Assembly: GCF_000423045.1 (NCBI RefSeq) | Contig: NZ_AUHF01000001.1 | Location: forward strand, 62,001-126,000 | Direction: 5' to 3' | DNA: 64,000 nt | Origin: Christiangramia portivictoriae DSM 23547 | GTDB lineage: Bacteria; Bacteroidota; Bacteroidia; Flavobacteriales; Flavobacteriaceae | Shown: piece by piece, positions 53,733 through 59,361 of the stretch | Numbering within the stretch: the stretch's first letter is position 1 | Layout: every line of letters begins with the position of its first letter | The notes under the pieces: model-generated | What the model was told of the DNA's origin: nothing | The model's database searches: none | The model's input: only the letters and a program-made list of their open reading frames with translations | Made by a program: the position numbers and the translations under genes

Positions 53733-54131
53733 ATGAAAAAGATAGAGCATATAGGTATTGCGGTTAAAGATCTGGAAGCTGCTAATAGAACCTACAAAGC
53801 GATCTTAGGTGCAGAGCATTACAAGACCGAAAAAGTTGAGGGAGAAGGAGTAAATACTTCTTTTTTCAGGATAGGAGAGAGCAAGATCGAATTACTTGCT
53901 GCTACCAGGAATGATAGCCCAATTGCAAAATTTCTGGAGAAGAGGGGAGAGGGCATACATCATGTGGCGTTTCTGGTAGATGATATTAATGCGGAGATTG
54001 AGCGCCTGAAAGATGAAGGTTTCAGGTTACTAAATGAAACTCCGAAGCAGGGTGCCGATAATAAGATTGTAGCATTTATGCATCCTAAAGATGGTAACGG
54101 AGTCCTTGTTGAGCTTTGCCAGGAAAAATAG
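53733..54131 (+). CDS. mce: Methylmalonyl-CoA epimerase
   Basis: Interconverts (2R)- and (2S)-methylmalonyl-CoA in propionate metabolism, 132 residues, glyoxalase fold. Metal ligands are expected at KIEHIGIAV (His), GIHHVAF (His) and VLVELCQ (Glu), all present. Confidence 0.93.
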   Translation: MKKIEHIGIAVKDLEAANRTYKAILGAEHYKTEKVEGEGVNTSFFRIGESKIELLAATRNDSPIAKFLEKRGEGIHHVAFLVDDINAEIERLKDEGFRLLNETPKQGADNKIVAFMHPKDGNGVLVELCQEK

Positions 54132-54141
54132 AATTAATTTG

Positions 54142-54173
54142 TTTGGTGCGTAAGGGGCAATTATCTAAATTTG
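54142..54173 (+). promoter_or_regulatory. Promoter of the CAU tRNA
   Basis: TTTG at 54142-54145, 20 bases, then TAAATTTG at 54166-54173, 24 bp before the tRNA. Confidence 0.7.
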
Positions 54174-54197
54174 CGCTCGCGATACGAATACGTATCA

Positions 54198-54271
54198 GGT
54201 CCCATAGCTCAGTTGGTTAGAGCACCTGACTCATAATCAGGTGGTCCTTGGTTCGAGCCCAAGTGGGACCA
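54198..54271 (+). tRNA. tRNA with CAU anticodon (Met, or Ile2)
   Basis: Acceptor GGTCCCA/TGGGACC with discriminator A. The anticodon loop is CTCATAA inside stem CCTGA/TCAGG. The T arm is CTTGG-TTCGAGC-CCAAG. Elongator Met is my first choice; lysidine-modified Ile2 (CAU) cannot be ruled out by eye. Likely attachment target for the mobilizable element that follows. Confidence 0.9.
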
Positions 54272-54548
54272 CTAGTAAAATCAAGGCTTCGCAAATTTAG
54301 TTTTGCGGAGCCTTCTTTTTTTACACGTATTTCACACGTAGAATTAGTGAAAATTTCCTCAAAAATTTTTTTTGAAATCAATTCGACTCATTTCTATCTA
54401 ACTTATTTTTATTTATGATATATTCATTTAATTTACTAAATATTTACATATAATGAGATATATTTAATGAAAAAGTAAAAAACATGAATATTTTCTAATT
54501 AATTTATTATTTCTTATTTTTAATAGGTCATGTACTTACAGGTCTATT
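54272..54548. other. AT-rich spacer after the tRNA with repeated ACACGTA
   Basis: No ORF. ACACGTA occurs at 54323-54329 and again at 54334-54340 (11-bp period), just beyond the tRNA terminator. Arm-type integrase sites are one possibility, but no integrase is present. Confidence 0.4.
54283..54323 (+). terminator. Terminator after CAU tRNA
   Basis: Arms AAGGCTtCGCAAA and TTTGCGgAGCCTT with one mismatch, followed by a T run. Confidence 0.88.
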
Positions 54549-55757
54549 TTGGTGAAGGAAAGCAAATATATTAGAGTTGGCACCCAGTATTTTAAACTGG
54601 TGAAAATTCCTACTATTTCAGGGCATACGAATCAAAATTTGATTCCCTGGAATATCGAAACCATCCGCCAGGATCATGGTAAGACCTTTCTAGCCCAGAT
54701 CCCCAAATTTGATGGCTTCACCTGTATTCCGGACCATCTTAACTTTCAATCGACCTTCCATAACTTTTATAATACGTATGCTCCTTTAAGCTATATACCC
54801 GAAAAAGGAAGTATTAAACGATCTATAGCATTTGTTAAACATATTTTCGGTTCTCATTTTGAACTAGGGCTGGATTACCTGCAGCTGCTTTATACCAAAC
54901 CCATTCAGATTCTTCCCATTCTTTGCCTGGTCTCCCAGGAACGCTCTACAGGAAAAAGCACTTTTTTAAAATGGCTTAAGAATATTTTCCAGGGAAATCT
55001 CACATATTTACTTAATGATGATTTCAGTAGCCAGTTTAATTCAGACTGGACCAATAAGTTGCTGATCTGTGTCGATGAAGTTCTTTTTAATAAGGAAGAA
55101 CTCACCGAAAGAATCAAGTACCTCAGTACCACCAATTTTAACAAGCTTGAGGCAAAAGGAAAGGACAAGCGGGAAGTAGAATTTTTTGGCAAATTCATTC
55201 TTTGCAGTAACAATGAGGAAAGCTTTATTAAGATCGATCAGCATGAGACCCGGTTCTGGGTCCTGAAAGTTCTCAGAGCCGAAAAGGAAGAAACAGAATT
55301 ACTTGAAAAATTACAACATGAGATTCCAGCATTTCTATACTTTCTTTCGAACCGGCCTCTGCTTTCCCAGAAGAAAACCCGGATGTGGTTTACTCCTGAA
55401 CAATTAGAAACAACAGCCTTAAAAAGGTTAGTTCATAATAATAGGAACCGGGTAGAGAAGGAGATAGCCAGCTTACTTATTGGCATCATGGAAACTGATA
55501 ATTCAGAAGAGATCAAAGTATGTCCGGTGGATGTATTAAATGCCCTGGGTAAATCCCGGATACGAACCGACCTGACCCAGATCCGGAAGATCTTTAAAAG
55601 AGACTGGAAACTTACCAGTCAATCGAACTCCAATAGCTACCTGCGCTTTGTCACCTACGCTGATGGAGATATTAACTGGAAGGAAGCTAAAGGGCGCTAT
55701 TTCACCATAACTAAAATGTTCTTACAGCAGCAGTTTGAAGAAGAGAAGATCGAATAG
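54549..55757 (+). CDS. Primase-helicase family protein (SF3/DUF5906-like), mobilizable element
   Basis: ATPase-helicase of 402 residues typical of Bacteroidota mobile elements. Walker A is SQERSTGKST (129-138), Walker B LLICVDEV (171-178), motif C FILCSNNE (216-223), and HETRFW (232-237) gives the arginine finger. It likely unwinds the element's origin, with the TOPRIM protein downstream. The start is TTG at 54549 or GTG at 54552; no ATG was found in frame nearby. Confidence 0.82.
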   Translation: MVKESKYIRVGTQYFKLVKIPTISGHTNQNLIPWNIETIRQDHGKTFLAQIPKFDGFTCIPDHLNFQSTFHNFYNTYAPLSYIPEKGSIKRSIAFVKHIFGSHFELGLDYLQLLYTKPIQILPILCLVSQERSTGKSTFLKWLKNIFQGNLTYLLNDDFSSQFNSDWTNKLLICVDEVLFNKEELTERIKYLSTTNFNKLEAKGKDKREVEFFGKFILCSNNEESFIKIDQHETRFWVLKVLRAEKEETELLEKLQHEIPAFLYFLSNRPLLSQKKTRMWFTPEQLETTALKRLVHNNRNRVEKEIASLLIGIMETDNSEEIKVCPVDVLNALGKSRIRTDLTQIRKIFKRDWKLTSQSNSNSYLRFVTYADGDINWKEAKGRYFTITKMFLQQQFEEEKIE

Positions 55758-55776
55758 AATTTGCCTACGCAAACAA

Positions 55777-55861
55777 AAATGATGAATTGATGAAAAAATG
55801 ATGGCAGGGAACCACCAGTGTTCACGGGAGCTCCCATGTGCTGTCATCATTTCATCATTTT
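55777..55861. repeat. Long inverted repeat of TGATGA motifs
   Basis: AAAATGATGAATTGATGA near 55777 matches the reverse complement of TCATCATTTCATCATTTT at 55844-55861 at 17 of 18 positions. Inside, ATGATGgCAG (55798-55807) pairs with CTGtCATCAT (55841-55850) with one mismatch. The loop holds the palindrome GGGAGCTCCC. Confidence 0.75.
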
Positions 55862-55957
55862 GAAACGGACTTTTCAGGGAAAAACTTCTAATTCTCTCTT
55901 TTTTTTGATGAATTGATGACAGAATAAGATAAGACCAGTAATCGTAAGGGTTTAGGC

Positions 55958-55990
55958 TGTCATCAAAATGTCATCAAATTGTCATCAAAA
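55958..55990. repeat. Three 11-bp tandem iterons TGTCATCAAAw
   Basis: TGTCATCAAAA, TGTCATCAAAT and TGTCATCAAAA follow directly at 55958, 55969 and 55980 with exact 11-bp period, one helical turn. Inverted copies of the core are at 55996-56004 (ATGATGACA) and 55914-55921. Confidence 0.92.
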
Positions 55991-56097
55991 TGAAAATGAT
56001 GACAAAAATTAAGAAAATAGGGACGTGACACTAAATATAACTAAATACCATCAATGCAAATGCTATTGAAATAAAAAGTAGAAATGTTTTTCCTCAG

Positions 56098-56146
56098 TTT
56101 ACCTAAACAAAACCCCGTCCATGGGTGAGGGCTTTGTTTAGGTAAA
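56098..56146. repeat. Perfect 14-bp inverted repeat TTTACCTAAACAAA
   Basis: TTTACCTAAACAAA at 56098-56111 is exactly repeated in inverse at 56133-56146. The 21-base loop extends the stem with CCC/GGG after one mismatch. It carries the TTACCTA core of the second repeat family. Confidence 0.9.
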
Positions 56147-56377
56147 ACAGGAAAGAAATAATTTAAAAAATATAAAGGTCACCTACCTACTTACCTAAAG
56201 TCTCTCAATCCGAATGAGAGCGGGACTTTCAGCCAGGTAAGTAAAATTAGATTCATCTTACCTAAGCTACCTAAAGAAGGGCTCGGGTAAGTCAGGTAAC
56301 AAAAGGTAACTGACATTTTTATTTGAAAAGCCTTGATATGGCTGAAAAAGGTAAGTAGGTAATCAAAATTTAAAGAA

Positions 56378-57247
56378 ATGAGTTACAACAAATTAACCTG
56401 TGAAAGAGCCCGCAATATTTGCATCCTGCAAACACTCGCAAAACTGGGGCACTTTCCCAGTAGGACAACGGAGAAAGAAGCCTGGTTTCTGAGTCCCCTT
56501 CGGTCAGAAACCCAGGCCTCTTTCAAGGTGTCTTTAAAACTGAACCGCTGGTATGACTTTGGAATAGGCGAAGGAGGAAATGTAATCGACTTGGTATGCA
56601 AGATTTCGAACTCTAGTGTTGCCGAAGCCCTGCAATTCTTATCCGATGATCTGCCGGTATTTAAAGTTCAAACTCCTGAAACGGATATTCGTGAAAAAGG
56701 TAGTTGCAACAGGGTTACAGCAGTAAGACCGATCATCAAAAGTCATTTAAAGAAGTACCTGAGAACTCGAGGTATTTCTATACAAGTTGCTCTAAACTAT
56801 TGCAAAGAAGTTTGGTATGAATCTCAAGGTTCCATTTACTATGCTATTGGACTTCAAAATAACGAAGGTGGCTGGGAACTTCGCAATCTCTATTTTAAAA
56901 CTTCAACTTCTCCAAAAAGCTACACCTACCTCCAGAATAATAAAGAAATTCTGATAATATGTGAAGGTATGTTTGACCTGCTATCTATCGCTGAATTATA
57001 TCCCGAAGACCTTAAGGATTCAGATGCGATTTGTTTAAACTCCATTTCTTTTTTACAGAAGATCACCCCTTACTTCCAGAATTATAGAACTGTTGATCTC
57101 TACCTGGATAATGATCCTCCCGGAAAGAAAAACACCATCGAATTATTAAAGTATTATCCGAATATAAATGACAAGAGTCACCGCTATAAAAACTATAAAG
57201 ACCTCAATGAAAAACTAGCTTGTGGACACAGCATTTTCACGAGCTAA
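56378..57247 (+). CDS. TOPRIM domain (CHC2/DnaG-like) primase-type protein of the element
   Basis: Length 289. N-terminal part with LSPLRSETQASFKVSLKLNRWYDFGIGEGGNVIDLVCKI resembles the CHC2 primase core with the zinc cysteines largely lost. The TOPRIM motif is IICEGMFDLLS (about 193-203), and the second site is LDNDPPGK (243-250). Probably primes replication or transfer synthesis. The upstream iteron block lies 1 bp from its start codon. Confidence 0.8.
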   Translation: MSYNKLTCERARNICILQTLAKLGHFPSRTTEKEAWFLSPLRSETQASFKVSLKLNRWYDFGIGEGGNVIDLVCKISNSSVAEALQFLSDDLPVFKVQTPETDIREKGSCNRVTAVRPIIKSHLKKYLRTRGISIQVALNYCKEVWYESQGSIYYAIGLQNNEGGWELRNLYFKTSTSPKSYTYLQNNKEILIICEGMFDLLSIAELYPEDLKDSDAICLNSISFLQKITPYFQNYRTVDLYLDNDPPGKKNTIELLKYYPNINDKSHRYKNYKDLNEKLACGHSIFTS

Positions 57248-57338
57248 AAATCGTTTTCGAGAAGCAAAGCAAGATGTGTCATTGTCATGACAATCTTGCT
57301 TTGCGCCCGGAGGTTGCAAAGATTAAAAAGACAAAATT
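57248..57338 (+). promoter_or_regulatory. Candidate origin of transfer (oriT) upstream of mobC
   Basis: A perfect 12-bp inverted repeat, GCAAAGCAAGAT at 57264-57275 and ATCTTGCTTTGC at 57293-57304, spans a 17-base spacer containing TGTCATGACA. CTTTGC (57299-57304) can alternatively pair with GCAAAG at 57316-57321. It sits directly before mobC and mobA, the usual place for oriT. Confidence 0.6.
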
Positions 57339-57635
57339 ATGAAACGTGAAGTCATCCAGATTCGATGTTCGATCTACGAGAAAAAGCTACTCAAAAAAAG
57401 AGCGGCCAGGGCTGGAATTTCCCTTTCGGAATACTTGCGGTTAACCGCATTTCAAATCAATATTGTGGAAAGACTCACCCCGGAACAATTGGAATCTTAT
57501 CAGATGCTTGTCCAGTATAAAAACAACTTTATGCGGATCAGTAATATGTTCAAACATCGGGATACCAGGCTGGCTAAAGAAGTTGAAGATCTGGCCGAAA
57601 AAATTAGAACACATCTTCAAAATTTTAAAAAATGA
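57339..57635 (+). CDS. MobC relaxosome protein
   Basis: Length 98. Ribbon-helix-helix type N-terminus (VIQIRCSIYEKKLLKKRAARAGISLSEYLR) followed by a helical tail, as in MobC of MobA/MobC mobilization systems. It should bind oriT and help the relaxase open the nick region. The relaxase start overlaps its end by 4 bp. Confidence 0.85.
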   Translation: MKREVIQIRCSIYEKKLLKKRAARAGISLSEYLRLTAFQINIVERLTPEQLESYQMLVQYKNNFMRISNMFKHRDTRLAKEVEDLAEKIRTHLQNFKK

Positions 57636-58504
57636 TTGGAAAGGGACAATCCATATCACGAACCCAGGCTTCCATCGCATATGGCTGGAACCAGGAAAAA
57701 GATGCCGAAGTGGTTCTCAAACAATATCTGGCGGGTGATACGCCCGAGCAGATCACCGATGAATTCAAGATTATCCAATCGCAAAATGATCGATGCATTA
57801 AAAACACCATGAGCTTTGTAGTGAGTCCAACCGTAAAAGATGGTAAGAATTTAAACTATCAAGATCTGGAAAGAATCGCCCAGCAATTTATTAAAGAGAT
57901 GAACCTCCAGAATCACCAGGCTATTGGTTTTGTTCATAAGGATAAGCAACATACCCATATTCATATCTATGCGAATCGTATAAGCTTAAAAGGTGAAGTC
58001 TATAAAGACAGCTTTATAGGCAAGCGTGGCCAAATCGCAGCTGATAATGTAGCCAAACAATTAGGACTTACTCGCGTGAGAGAAGTCCAGCAGGAAAAGC
58101 TTCAGGAATTAAAATGGCAGCGATTGGCCATTAAGCATATCCACAACAAAGTGTTGGAGGCCAGGCCAAAATCCCTGGATGATTATATCCAAAAAATGAA
58201 TGTGCGGAATGTAATTGTCACTCCAAGTATCAATAAATCCAATCAGCTGCAGGGCTTCCGGTTTGAATACCAGGGCATCAATTTAAAAGGAAGTGATGTT
58301 CACCGGTCTATGAGCGGCAGTAACCTGATCGCCGAAATTTCTCAGAATAATAATTTCAGCAAACTCAAAGAAGTACCGAAAACTTTAAAACTGGTAAATA
58401 ACACTGTACAACTGAGCACGAATATACTTACTAAGATCGCTAGAGACCAGGCAAAACAAGTGATTAAACGAGCAATTGACAAAGGCATTGGAATGGGCTA
58501 CTAA
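57632..58504 (+). CDS. MobA-type relaxase (mobilization nuclease)
   Basis: Length 290. The HUH metal site is complete: HTHIHIYAN with His107, His109 and His111. The catalytic tyrosine should lie in the N-terminal segment (Tyr17 in SIAYGWN). The rest, with LDDYIQKM and YQGINLKGSDV, is typical of the MOBP group in Bacteroidota islands. It nicks oriT and starts DNA transfer with the help of a co-resident conjugation system. Confidence 0.85.
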   Translation: MIGKGQSISRTQASIAYGWNQEKDAEVVLKQYLAGDTPEQITDEFKIIQSQNDRCIKNTMSFVVSPTVKDGKNLNYQDLERIAQQFIKEMNLQNHQAIGFVHKDKQHTHIHIYANRISLKGEVYKDSFIGKRGQIAADNVAKQLGLTRVREVQQEKLQELKWQRLAIKHIHNKVLEARPKSLDDYIQKMNVRNVIVTPSINKSNQLQGFRFEYQGINLKGSDVHRSMSGSNLIAEISQNNNFSKLKEVPKTLKLVNNTVQLSTNILTKIARDQAKQVIKRAIDKGIGMGY

Positions 58505-58516
58505 AAAATAATTATT

Positions 58517-58966
58517 ATGAAAAAACTAGATGAGATTATGGAACTGATGGCCGATGAAATGGCCGATTTTAAAAAGTCCCTTGCAAGGCTAGACGCTCTA
58601 TCAAAAGAGCTCAATAAAATGAGCGTACCTATCAGTACATCTACATTTGACGAGAATTTAAAAAGCTTTCTTCAAAAACAGGAAGAGGCCAACGAGCTAA
58701 AAAATGAATTACTCAGAGATATCATTATCCAGTTGGAAAGAGCCAGTCTTATACCTAATTATGTACTTGTGTTATTTGGAGGTATTCTGATCATGCTATT
58801 ATCCGGTCTTGGATATTTTATTTACTCTTCTAAAATAACCGAAGAAGAGAAGTTCCAGATCTATCGAACTATATCTGAATCAGAACTTGAATCCTATCAA
58901 ATCTTTTTCTCTGAAAACCTGGAGATAAAAGAAGATTACTGCAGTTGGCTACAAGATTCCCATTAA
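58517..58966 (+). CDS. Coiled-coil membrane protein of the mobilization module
   Basis: Length 149. The N-terminal 85 residues form a charged coiled coil (MKKLDEIMELMADEMADF), followed by one membrane helix (about 88-110, LIPNYVLVLFGGILIMLLSGLGYF) and a short polar C-terminus. From memory, similar proteins follow mobA in flavobacterial islands (DUF6730-like). The relaxase could use it as a membrane anchor, but this is inferred from position only. Confidence 0.6.
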   Translation: MKKLDEIMELMADEMADFKKSLARLDALSKELNKMSVPISTSTFDENLKSFLQKQEEANELKNELLRDIIIQLERASLIPNYVLVLFGGILIMLLSGLGYFIYSSKITEEEKFQIYRTISESELESYQIFFSENLEIKEDYCSWLQDSH

Positions 58967-59034
58967 GTCTGATTATTTGTAACTATTGACTGAGAAATTA
59001 TCTAAAAAATTTTTAATTAGTAAAACTGCTATAT

Positions 59035-59361
59035 TTAACTCACATCATCTACGGAAGCTGCAGGCGCATTTTTCTTGACTGAAGATATGCCTTTTTCCAT
59101 AGCTCCTAAAGTTGTATAAATTTCACTAGTTCCAATAATTTGTCCATTACCTGATTCCAAATTGAATTTATATCCTGTAGAGGTTTGTTTCTTTTCGAAT
59201 CGCTTATCTAATTGCGAATTAGTTCGTACGGATTCAATACCATTTAAACAGGAAGCTTTGGCTTTATACCCTTCACTGCTCAAAATGACTTGACCGTTCC
59301 TAGCTTTTAAGTTAAAGCGGTATTCTCCAGCTTTATCTCTTTTGATTTCAAATTTTGCCAT
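59035..59361 (-). CDS. YegP family protein (DUF1508 tandem)
   Basis: Length 108. Two copies of the about 50-residue DUF1508 unit: FNLKARNGQVILSSEGY and FNLESGNGQIIGTSEIY. Widespread and small, function unknown; no signal peptide. It may lie outside the mobilizable element, as it is transcribed toward it. Confidence 0.85.
   Translation of the reverse strand: MAKFEIKRDKAGEYRFNLKARNGQVILSSEGYKAKASCLNGIESVRTNSQLDKRFEKKQTSTGYKFNLESGNGQIIGTSEIYTTLGAMEKGISSVKKNAPAASVDDVS

Follow-up and report, generated by a model that had tools for sequence, protein, structure and literature searches.

A three-unit repeat with an exact 11-bp period, lying between a helicase gene and a primase gene in a mobilizable element of Christiangramia portivictoriae DSM 23547, raises the question of what such an array does and which protein reads it. 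The array is in a stretch of 64,000 nucleotides (contig NZ_AUHF01000001.1, positions 62,001 to 126,000), which we call the window and number from its first letter. On comparison with related loci, we consider it very likely that 55780-56004 serves a Bacteroidota mobilizable element as its replication origin and that the helicase, which carries a DUF5906 domain, is the initiator. An initial annotation of the same DNA had proposed a landing pad for a replication initiator at this place, and that proposal is supported: relatives retain the array and its period, the helicase gene lies directly before it, and the array and the C-terminal domain of the helicase change together.

The repeat array and its place after the helicase gene

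We found TGTCATCAAA without mismatch at 55958-55967, 55969-55978, and 55980-55989, with A, T, and A as the eleventh letters of the three units, and inverted cores at 55914-55921 and 55997-56004. The initial annotation was thus correct on the strict 11-bp period (mismatch-free over 55958-55989), on the inverted cores on both sides, and on the location between the two genes (54549-55757 and 56378-57247). The interval that it gave, 55958-56004, does hold a real three-unit array but is the last block only of a far larger one, a region of about 225 bp made of TGATGA/TCATCA units. The genes and blocks are as follows.

54549-55757, + strand: DUF5906 AAA+ helicase, the proposed origin-binding initiator (Pfam, AlphaFold2, Foldseek)
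55446-55757, + strand: predicted winged-helix C-terminal domain of the helicase (residues about 300-402), the proposed repeat reader (AlphaFold2 element order)
55780-55806, - strand: block X, with TGATGA, TGATGA, and TGATGG, 8 and 11 bp apart
55842-55857, + strand: block Y, with TGTCATCA and TTTCATCA, 8 bp apart
55906-55921, - strand: block Z, with units 8 bp apart
55958-56004, + strand: block W, with three TGTCATCAAA at 11 bp and then the inverted TGATGACA at 55997-56004; kept in relatives
56378-57247, + strand: CHC2 zinc-finger/TOPRIM primase of the DnaG type (Pfam PF13155, PF01807)

Single units with at most one mismatch are about as frequent in the window as chance predicts (9 matches versus 8.1 expected). 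The triple, at 11-bp spacing and with at most three mismatches, occurs once in the 3.27-Mb genome and not at all in the backwards control. Because of this single occurrence and because the triple stays in place in relatives, a chance origin of the repeat was ruled out.

A search of 199 family genomes at the same threshold found the triple 14 times, in 13 genomes, and never in the backwards control. Thirteen of these 14, the window included, lie 42 to 216 bp beyond the end of a match to the helicase (at least 62% identity). Seen from the helicase side, 13 of the 16 helicases of at least 62% identity are followed by the triple; the other three are at a contig end (G129) or are followed by a version with four (G080, L115) or six (G117, L116) mismatches.

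Helicase matches were present in 27 of the 199 family genomes and 11 of 395 genomes of the phylum, and also in human-associated Bacteroides; from the viral-contig search, the best 80 of 202 relatives were included. The 190 matches comprised 142 distinct helicase proteins, and the downstream regions of all of them were examined. Eight of the 142 share downstream DNA with another row (the window itself and one place in G007 among them). After removal of duplicates and short downstream DNA, 129 distinct sequences were left, of which 47 follow helicases at least 60% identical to that of the window and 125 were tested against shuffles. The triple was present with at most 4 mismatches in 24 in 38 of the 47 regions (40 of 49 with two repeated places still counted), whereas even the best of five shuffles for each region had at least 6 mismatches. 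The initial annotation had suggested comparing the period between related elements; the 11 bp are constant in relatives, and the letters between units vary. Wherever both genes are present in these relatives, the array lies between helicase and primase. By eye, the blocks run X-Y-Z-W in the window and in several Gillisia and Christiangramia loci, and W-X-Y in many relatives, this rotated order being seen in the intergenic regions of L008, L016, L058, and L060.

Repeats were also found after other helicases of the group. The most repeated hexamer beat all 40 shuffles in 108 of the 125 distinct downstream regions (110 of 133 before duplicate removal), with a mean of 8.1 versus 3.7, and which hexamer is repeated varies by helicase clade. 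Hexamer labels were given to 129 of the 142 proteins (at least 380 amino acids, no stop, and enough downstream DNA) from a list picked after viewing the regions. Seven loci with an in-frame stop were dropped in the course of the comparison. The labels were TCATCA in 70 regions, TCAACA in 28, TGTAAA in 7, AGTAAT in 5, GCATCA and TGTTAA in 4 each, GTTACA in 2, and GTAACA in 1, with 8 regions lacking a clear repeat. With duplicates counted once, the 123 labelled regions divided into 68 TCATCA, 27 TCAACA, 6 TGTAAA, 3 AGTAAT, 4 GCATCA, 4 TGTTAA, 2 GTTACA, 1 GTAACA, and 8 without a clear repeat.

Joint change of the helicase C-terminal domain and the array

The helicase matched Pfam PF19263 (E = 2e-20; 74 bits versus a gathering cut-off of 27.6) and is thus a DUF5906 protein; DUF5906 is described in the accessible text of one study as the AAA+ domain of the NrS-1/poxvirus D5 group (PMC9611036). 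Its AlphaFold2 model (mean predicted local distance difference test score, 85.9) has an AAA+ core and a tail made of a helix (301-316), a strand (321-324), two helices (326-333 and 342-352), and two strands (362-369 and 375-382). A sequence search of solved structures with the helicase gave nothing up to E = 1, and a fold search was therefore used. The Foldseek matches listed for the whole model were to the NrS-1 C-terminal region, PriRep1 of a Staphylococcus aureus pathogenicity island (SaPI) with double-stranded DNA, the SaPI5 primase-helicase, poxvirus D5/E5, and AsfvPrimPol, with E values of 2e-8 to 9e-7 for 7pds, 7om0, and 7ola. No match for the helicase was found in phage records.

Across 52 helicases of 40 to 60% identity to that of the window, mutual information with the TCATCA/TCAACA label, a measure in which variable columns score higher by nature, was highest in residues 357-402 (mean 0.254) and lower in 301-340 (0.169), 341-356 (0.143), 1-90 (0.108), 241-300 (0.107), and 121-240 (0.051). 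A stricter test took TCATCA and TCAACA rows only and grouped them by single linkage at 0.93 identity over residues 1-240, so that members of a cluster can be less alike than this; two of the 51 clusters mixed the two repeats (28 distinct rows, 24 and 4). Within these two, identity over residues 357-396 was 0.849 in same-repeat and 0.649 in different-repeat pairs (0/2000 permutations), and over residues 301-356 it was 0.777 and 0.726, respectively (5/2000). There was no such gap over residues 1-120 (0.862, 0.864), 121-240 (0.983, 0.981), or 241-300 (0.878, 0.874). Collapsing rows at 97% protein identity gave 35/2000 for residues 301-356 and 0/2000 for 357-396; the corresponding values before duplicate removal were 6/2000 and 0/2000. 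In these alignments of closely related TCATCA and TCAACA helicases, the identity of the array is tracked by the C-terminal domain only, and most of all by its predicted wing.

The change can be followed in a pair of loci, L157 with nine TCATCA and L173 with six TCAACA, whose helicases are 99% identical over residues 1-240. In 60-nt steps, their DNA identity is 0.87 to 1.0 up to helicase nucleotide 1020, falls to 0.50 to 0.82 from there through the array, and is back at 0.85 to 1.0 in the primase, and the protein differences are concentrated in the wing. Identity is lowest, at 0.50 to 0.68, in the final ~110 nt of the helicase gene and in most of the array, whereas most of the gene is at 0.9 to 1.0. 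In the same-repeat pair L173/L182, it is 0.83 to 0.98 throughout. The dip is also present in L156/L173, where the primase matches poorly as well. Many of these loci, the swap pairs included, were drawn from a metagenomic collection of viral contigs. As L157 and L173 match on either side of the dip, the primase past the array included, one crossover is insufficient, and a single crossover behind the joint change is disfavored; judging from the alignment, tail and array were replaced together or altered together.

Whether the helicase wing and the downstream origin of Bacteroidota elements form one exchangeable cassette, with the last ~50 codons swapped together with the whole array, we regard as evenly balanced. 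If they do, origin specificity would be switched between otherwise closely matching helicase/primase genes, giving separate replication-compatibility groups.

Proposed initiation and alternative explanations

From these comparisons we infer the following course of initiation, together with a circular excised state of the element. The helicase, encoded immediately upstream, would act as the initiator at 55780-56004, its C-terminal winged-helix domain reading the TGATGA/TCATCA units (8-bp pairs, one 11-bp triple, and inverted partners). It would assemble on the array as a ring, and the ring would open the adjacent AT-rich DNA and unwind it, leaving the adjacent TOPRIM primase to prime synthesis for the host polymerase. 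The initial annotation had seen no Rep protein nearby; the DUF5906 helicase is itself the likely Rep, because it resembles SaPI primase-helicases in predicted fold.

By analogy, the best reading is that the array works like the origin of SaPI Rep and the putative origin of Cch2 from the staphylococcal cassette chromosome mec (SCCmec). As far as the accessible part of PMC7581432 goes, the C-terminal domains of both proteins bind repeats directly downstream of their own gene; in SaPI, these short repeats form the origin, and the isolated C-terminal domain of Cch2 binds direct repeats downstream, where three iterons were identified. The same order of gene and repeats is found here, with a related AAA+ helicase carrying a C-terminal winged-helix-like domain in the model of the whole protein and an array directly downstream of its gene that is kept in relatives. 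The SaPI Rep/PriRep proteins of S. aureus (7pds, 7om0, and 7ola) are AAA+ helicases with a C-terminal DNA-binding part, as is predicted for the window helicase, which matches them in predicted fold. However, the window has a Bacteroidota host, a primase that is a separate CHC2/TOPRIM protein, mobilization genes, and repeats built of TGATGA units in 8-bp pairs plus the 11-bp triple. Family searches identified five element proteins (helicase, primase, MbpA, relaxase, and DUF6730), and no phage-packaging or phage-interference family was among them. We did not file the element as a SaPI because packaging families are absent and mobilization genes are present. Nor did these five proteins include a Rep_3 or similar initiator of the kind found in Rep_3-type iteron plasmids. 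Cch2 likewise is a helicase with repeats downstream of its gene; its partner is the CCPol-MP primase-polymerase, whereas that in the window is DnaG-like, and its binding has been measured, whereas that of the window helicase is proposed from comparison. The C-terminal region of the phage NrS-1 primase-polymerase (6k9c, 6lrb) and poxvirus D5, which are among the best structural matches, differ from the window in that primase and helicase are fused in a single chain. According to the accessible text of a 2017 review, no study had addressed the replication of excised integrative mobilizable elements (IMEs), and no DUF5906 initiator is named there (PMC5704250). Among the results listed for searches of a partial open-access literature library, no paper describing the origin in the window was seen.

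In a search of 72,556 plasmid records, the helicase had five matches, and four of these, in Bacteroides or Phocaeicola, span at least 96% of its length. OY726032, a circular record of 14,960 bp, carries DUF5906, a TOPRIM primase, an integrase, and an array of seven TCATCA hexamers; of its 16 open reading frames of at least 110 amino acids, 10 were scanned, and these included no further replication family. OY725957 is a circular record with a chromosomal-looking sugar-nucleotide gene. Since circular records are possibly excised circles or assembly products, OY726032 is no more than suggestive of autonomous replication by helicase and array. A related DUF5906-TOPRIM-MobV module was seen beside an annotated beta-lactamase gene on pBUN1 of Bacteroides uniformis (NZ_AP019725.1, L226).

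Several observations weigh against an origin read by the helicase. The winged helix is predicted from the succession of secondary-structure elements rather than by matching a known domain, and the template modeling scores by query length are modest (0.38 to 0.57) among the 50 Foldseek matches listed. The triple is degenerate in 9 of the 47 regions after close-relative helicases, so homologues lacking the array, which the initial annotation had held would speak against its proposal, do exist as a minority beside the 38 that keep it. Seventeen of the 125 downstream regions failed to beat every shuffle, and L100 (G094) has the triple without such a helicase beside it. Since just two clusters mix repeat types, few independent events underlie the joint change, and the rows of these clusters are mutually related. 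Identity in tail and array is also lowered in the same-repeat pair L157/L162 (0.63 to 0.73), less than in L157/L173, and part of the L157/L173 dip would therefore be fast evolution of this stretch; L162/L160, with flanks of 0.67 to 0.97 and a dip of 0.42 to 0.68, is similar to L157/L173 but less sharp. Both pairs weaken the case against a single crossover. Lastly, there is no integrase among the five element proteins, and because of this the element may no longer excise and may be fixed in place. At L100, the array lies by a TnpB/Cas12-like reading frame (by eye), with two near-identical ~65-bp repeats bracketing that frame.

The array could instead be an operator at which the helicase or another element protein controls transcription of the primase and mob genes, with replication starting elsewhere. 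It does lie upstream of the primase in the window and, between helicase and primase, in relatives with both genes, and the joint change with the helicase C-terminal domain would equally fit an autoregulator. However, some ten units, pointing both ways and spread over ~225 bp, are more than an operator usually has; the one promoter-like match that overlaps the array is directed away from the primase, and promoter matches are about as many as chance would give (5 versus 4.2). In L003, moreover, a repeat array follows the helicase, and no match to a window-type primase was seen in the stretch covered; in SaPI, according to the accessible text of PMC7581432, the repeats that related helicases bind downstream of their genes serve as origins. 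We regard an operator in place of an origin as unlikely, and the two roles can coexist. As for the reader, the initial annotation had named the helicase or a host protein. The comparative evidence of joint change favors the helicase, whereas a host initiator or nucleoid protein is a highly improbable reader: the repeat differs between elements, even in one genome (L031 versus L032, C. oceanisediminis), and goes with the C-terminal domain of the helicase that the element itself encodes.

The least probable role for the array is as part of an origin of transfer (oriT) bound by the relaxosome. The array does lie within a mobilizable element, about 1.3 kb from the mob genes. However, the usual oriT position is directly upstream of mobA, and a different inverted repeat occupies that position here. 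This repeat is identical in 10 of the 11 mobA-carrying relatives, even though the DNA preceding it differs (12 relatives were given for the comparison; L046 is diverged and L050 lacks mobA). The array, on the other hand, goes with the helicase: L031 and L033-L035, which have another helicase, keep similar mob genes without it. The inverted repeat is the better oriT candidate, and the array was set aside as oriT in its favor. This repeat and a second array upstream of the primase are placed as follows.

57264-57321, + strand: oriT candidate, the inverted repeat GCAAAGCAAGAT...ATCTTGCTTTGC and its following tail, upstream of mbpA
about 56184-56365, upstream of the primase: second array, of TTACCTA/TAGGTAA pairs

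A TCATCA array and, after it, an AGGTAA array are both present in the window, L032, and L036. Sister elements have another helicase (of VapE type, PF05272, in L031) before a window-type primase, together with AGGTAA arrays (GGGTAA/TACCCA-like in several Salegentibacter loci). Because these sister arrays follow a VapE-type helicase, which is lacking in the window element, the second array appears to be a leftover or an additional origin; it is probably left over from, or shared with, a VapE-type module. If wing and origin are indeed exchanged as a cassette, the two arrays of the window would be a trace of related module exchange. An 18-nt inverted repeat at 56098-56146 (arms 94% complementary, 13 nt between them, and TTACCTA in the arm) was also seen in L032 and L036; it may be a terminator or an origin hairpin.

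If 55780-56004 is indeed the origin and the helicase its initiator, a group of Bacteroidota elements would gain both in concrete form, along with a natural code tying a helicase domain to a repeat. Natural proteins that are close relatives and differ chiefly in tail and array would then be ready-made reagents.

The mobile element and its borders

The remaining features of the element are the following.

54198-54272, + strand: tRNA-Met (CAT), at whose 3' end the element starts (ARAGORN, Rfam)
57339-58504, + strand: MbpA/NikA-like mobilization protein and MobA/VirD2-type relaxase (NF041418, PF03432)
58517-58966, + strand: DUF6730 protein (PF20503), the last gene in common with relatives

MbpA scored 108.6 bits with NF041418, over the cut-off of 90, and the relaxase matched PF03432 at E = 3.8e-27; the MbpB model was also matched, under its cut-off. 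The primase had a partial match to TIGR01391 (dnaG), likewise under the cut-off of that model. In having its own relaxase and no conjugation pore genes, the element resembles an IME; no transfer family beyond MbpA and the relaxase was found among the five element proteins. NBU1, NBU2, and Tn4555-type IMEs share this makeup; in the accessible text of PMC5704250, these Bacteroidetes elements are described as having a MobP relaxase without pore genes, and one Bacteroides fragilis element in its table is located at a tRNA 3' end.

DNA similarity between the window and L032 stops at 58941. No further open reading frame of at least 80 amino acids was found on the element's strand in the gap between tRNA and helicase, and no attachment-site repeat was evident, as the 23-nt tRNA 3' end is not repeated within the window at up to three mismatches. 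A recombinase-like reading frame lies upstream of the helicase in L036 (by eye). The reading of the array as an RNA element was rejected: in the Rfam search of 54100-59100, the tRNA alone reached the gathering score, and one sub-threshold match overlies it. A tRNA-Met of the same kind also adjoins the element in L032 and L229. Eighteen other loci of the genus had the tRNA in 16 cases and a helicase match in none, within the stretch covered. The place where tRNA-Met stands beside an mce gene (54198-54549) is a variable site in the genus: neither the element nor a relaxase match was seen in the other 17 loci covered, L230 has a partial relaxase match at this very place, and the element itself is present in its own genome and in L229.
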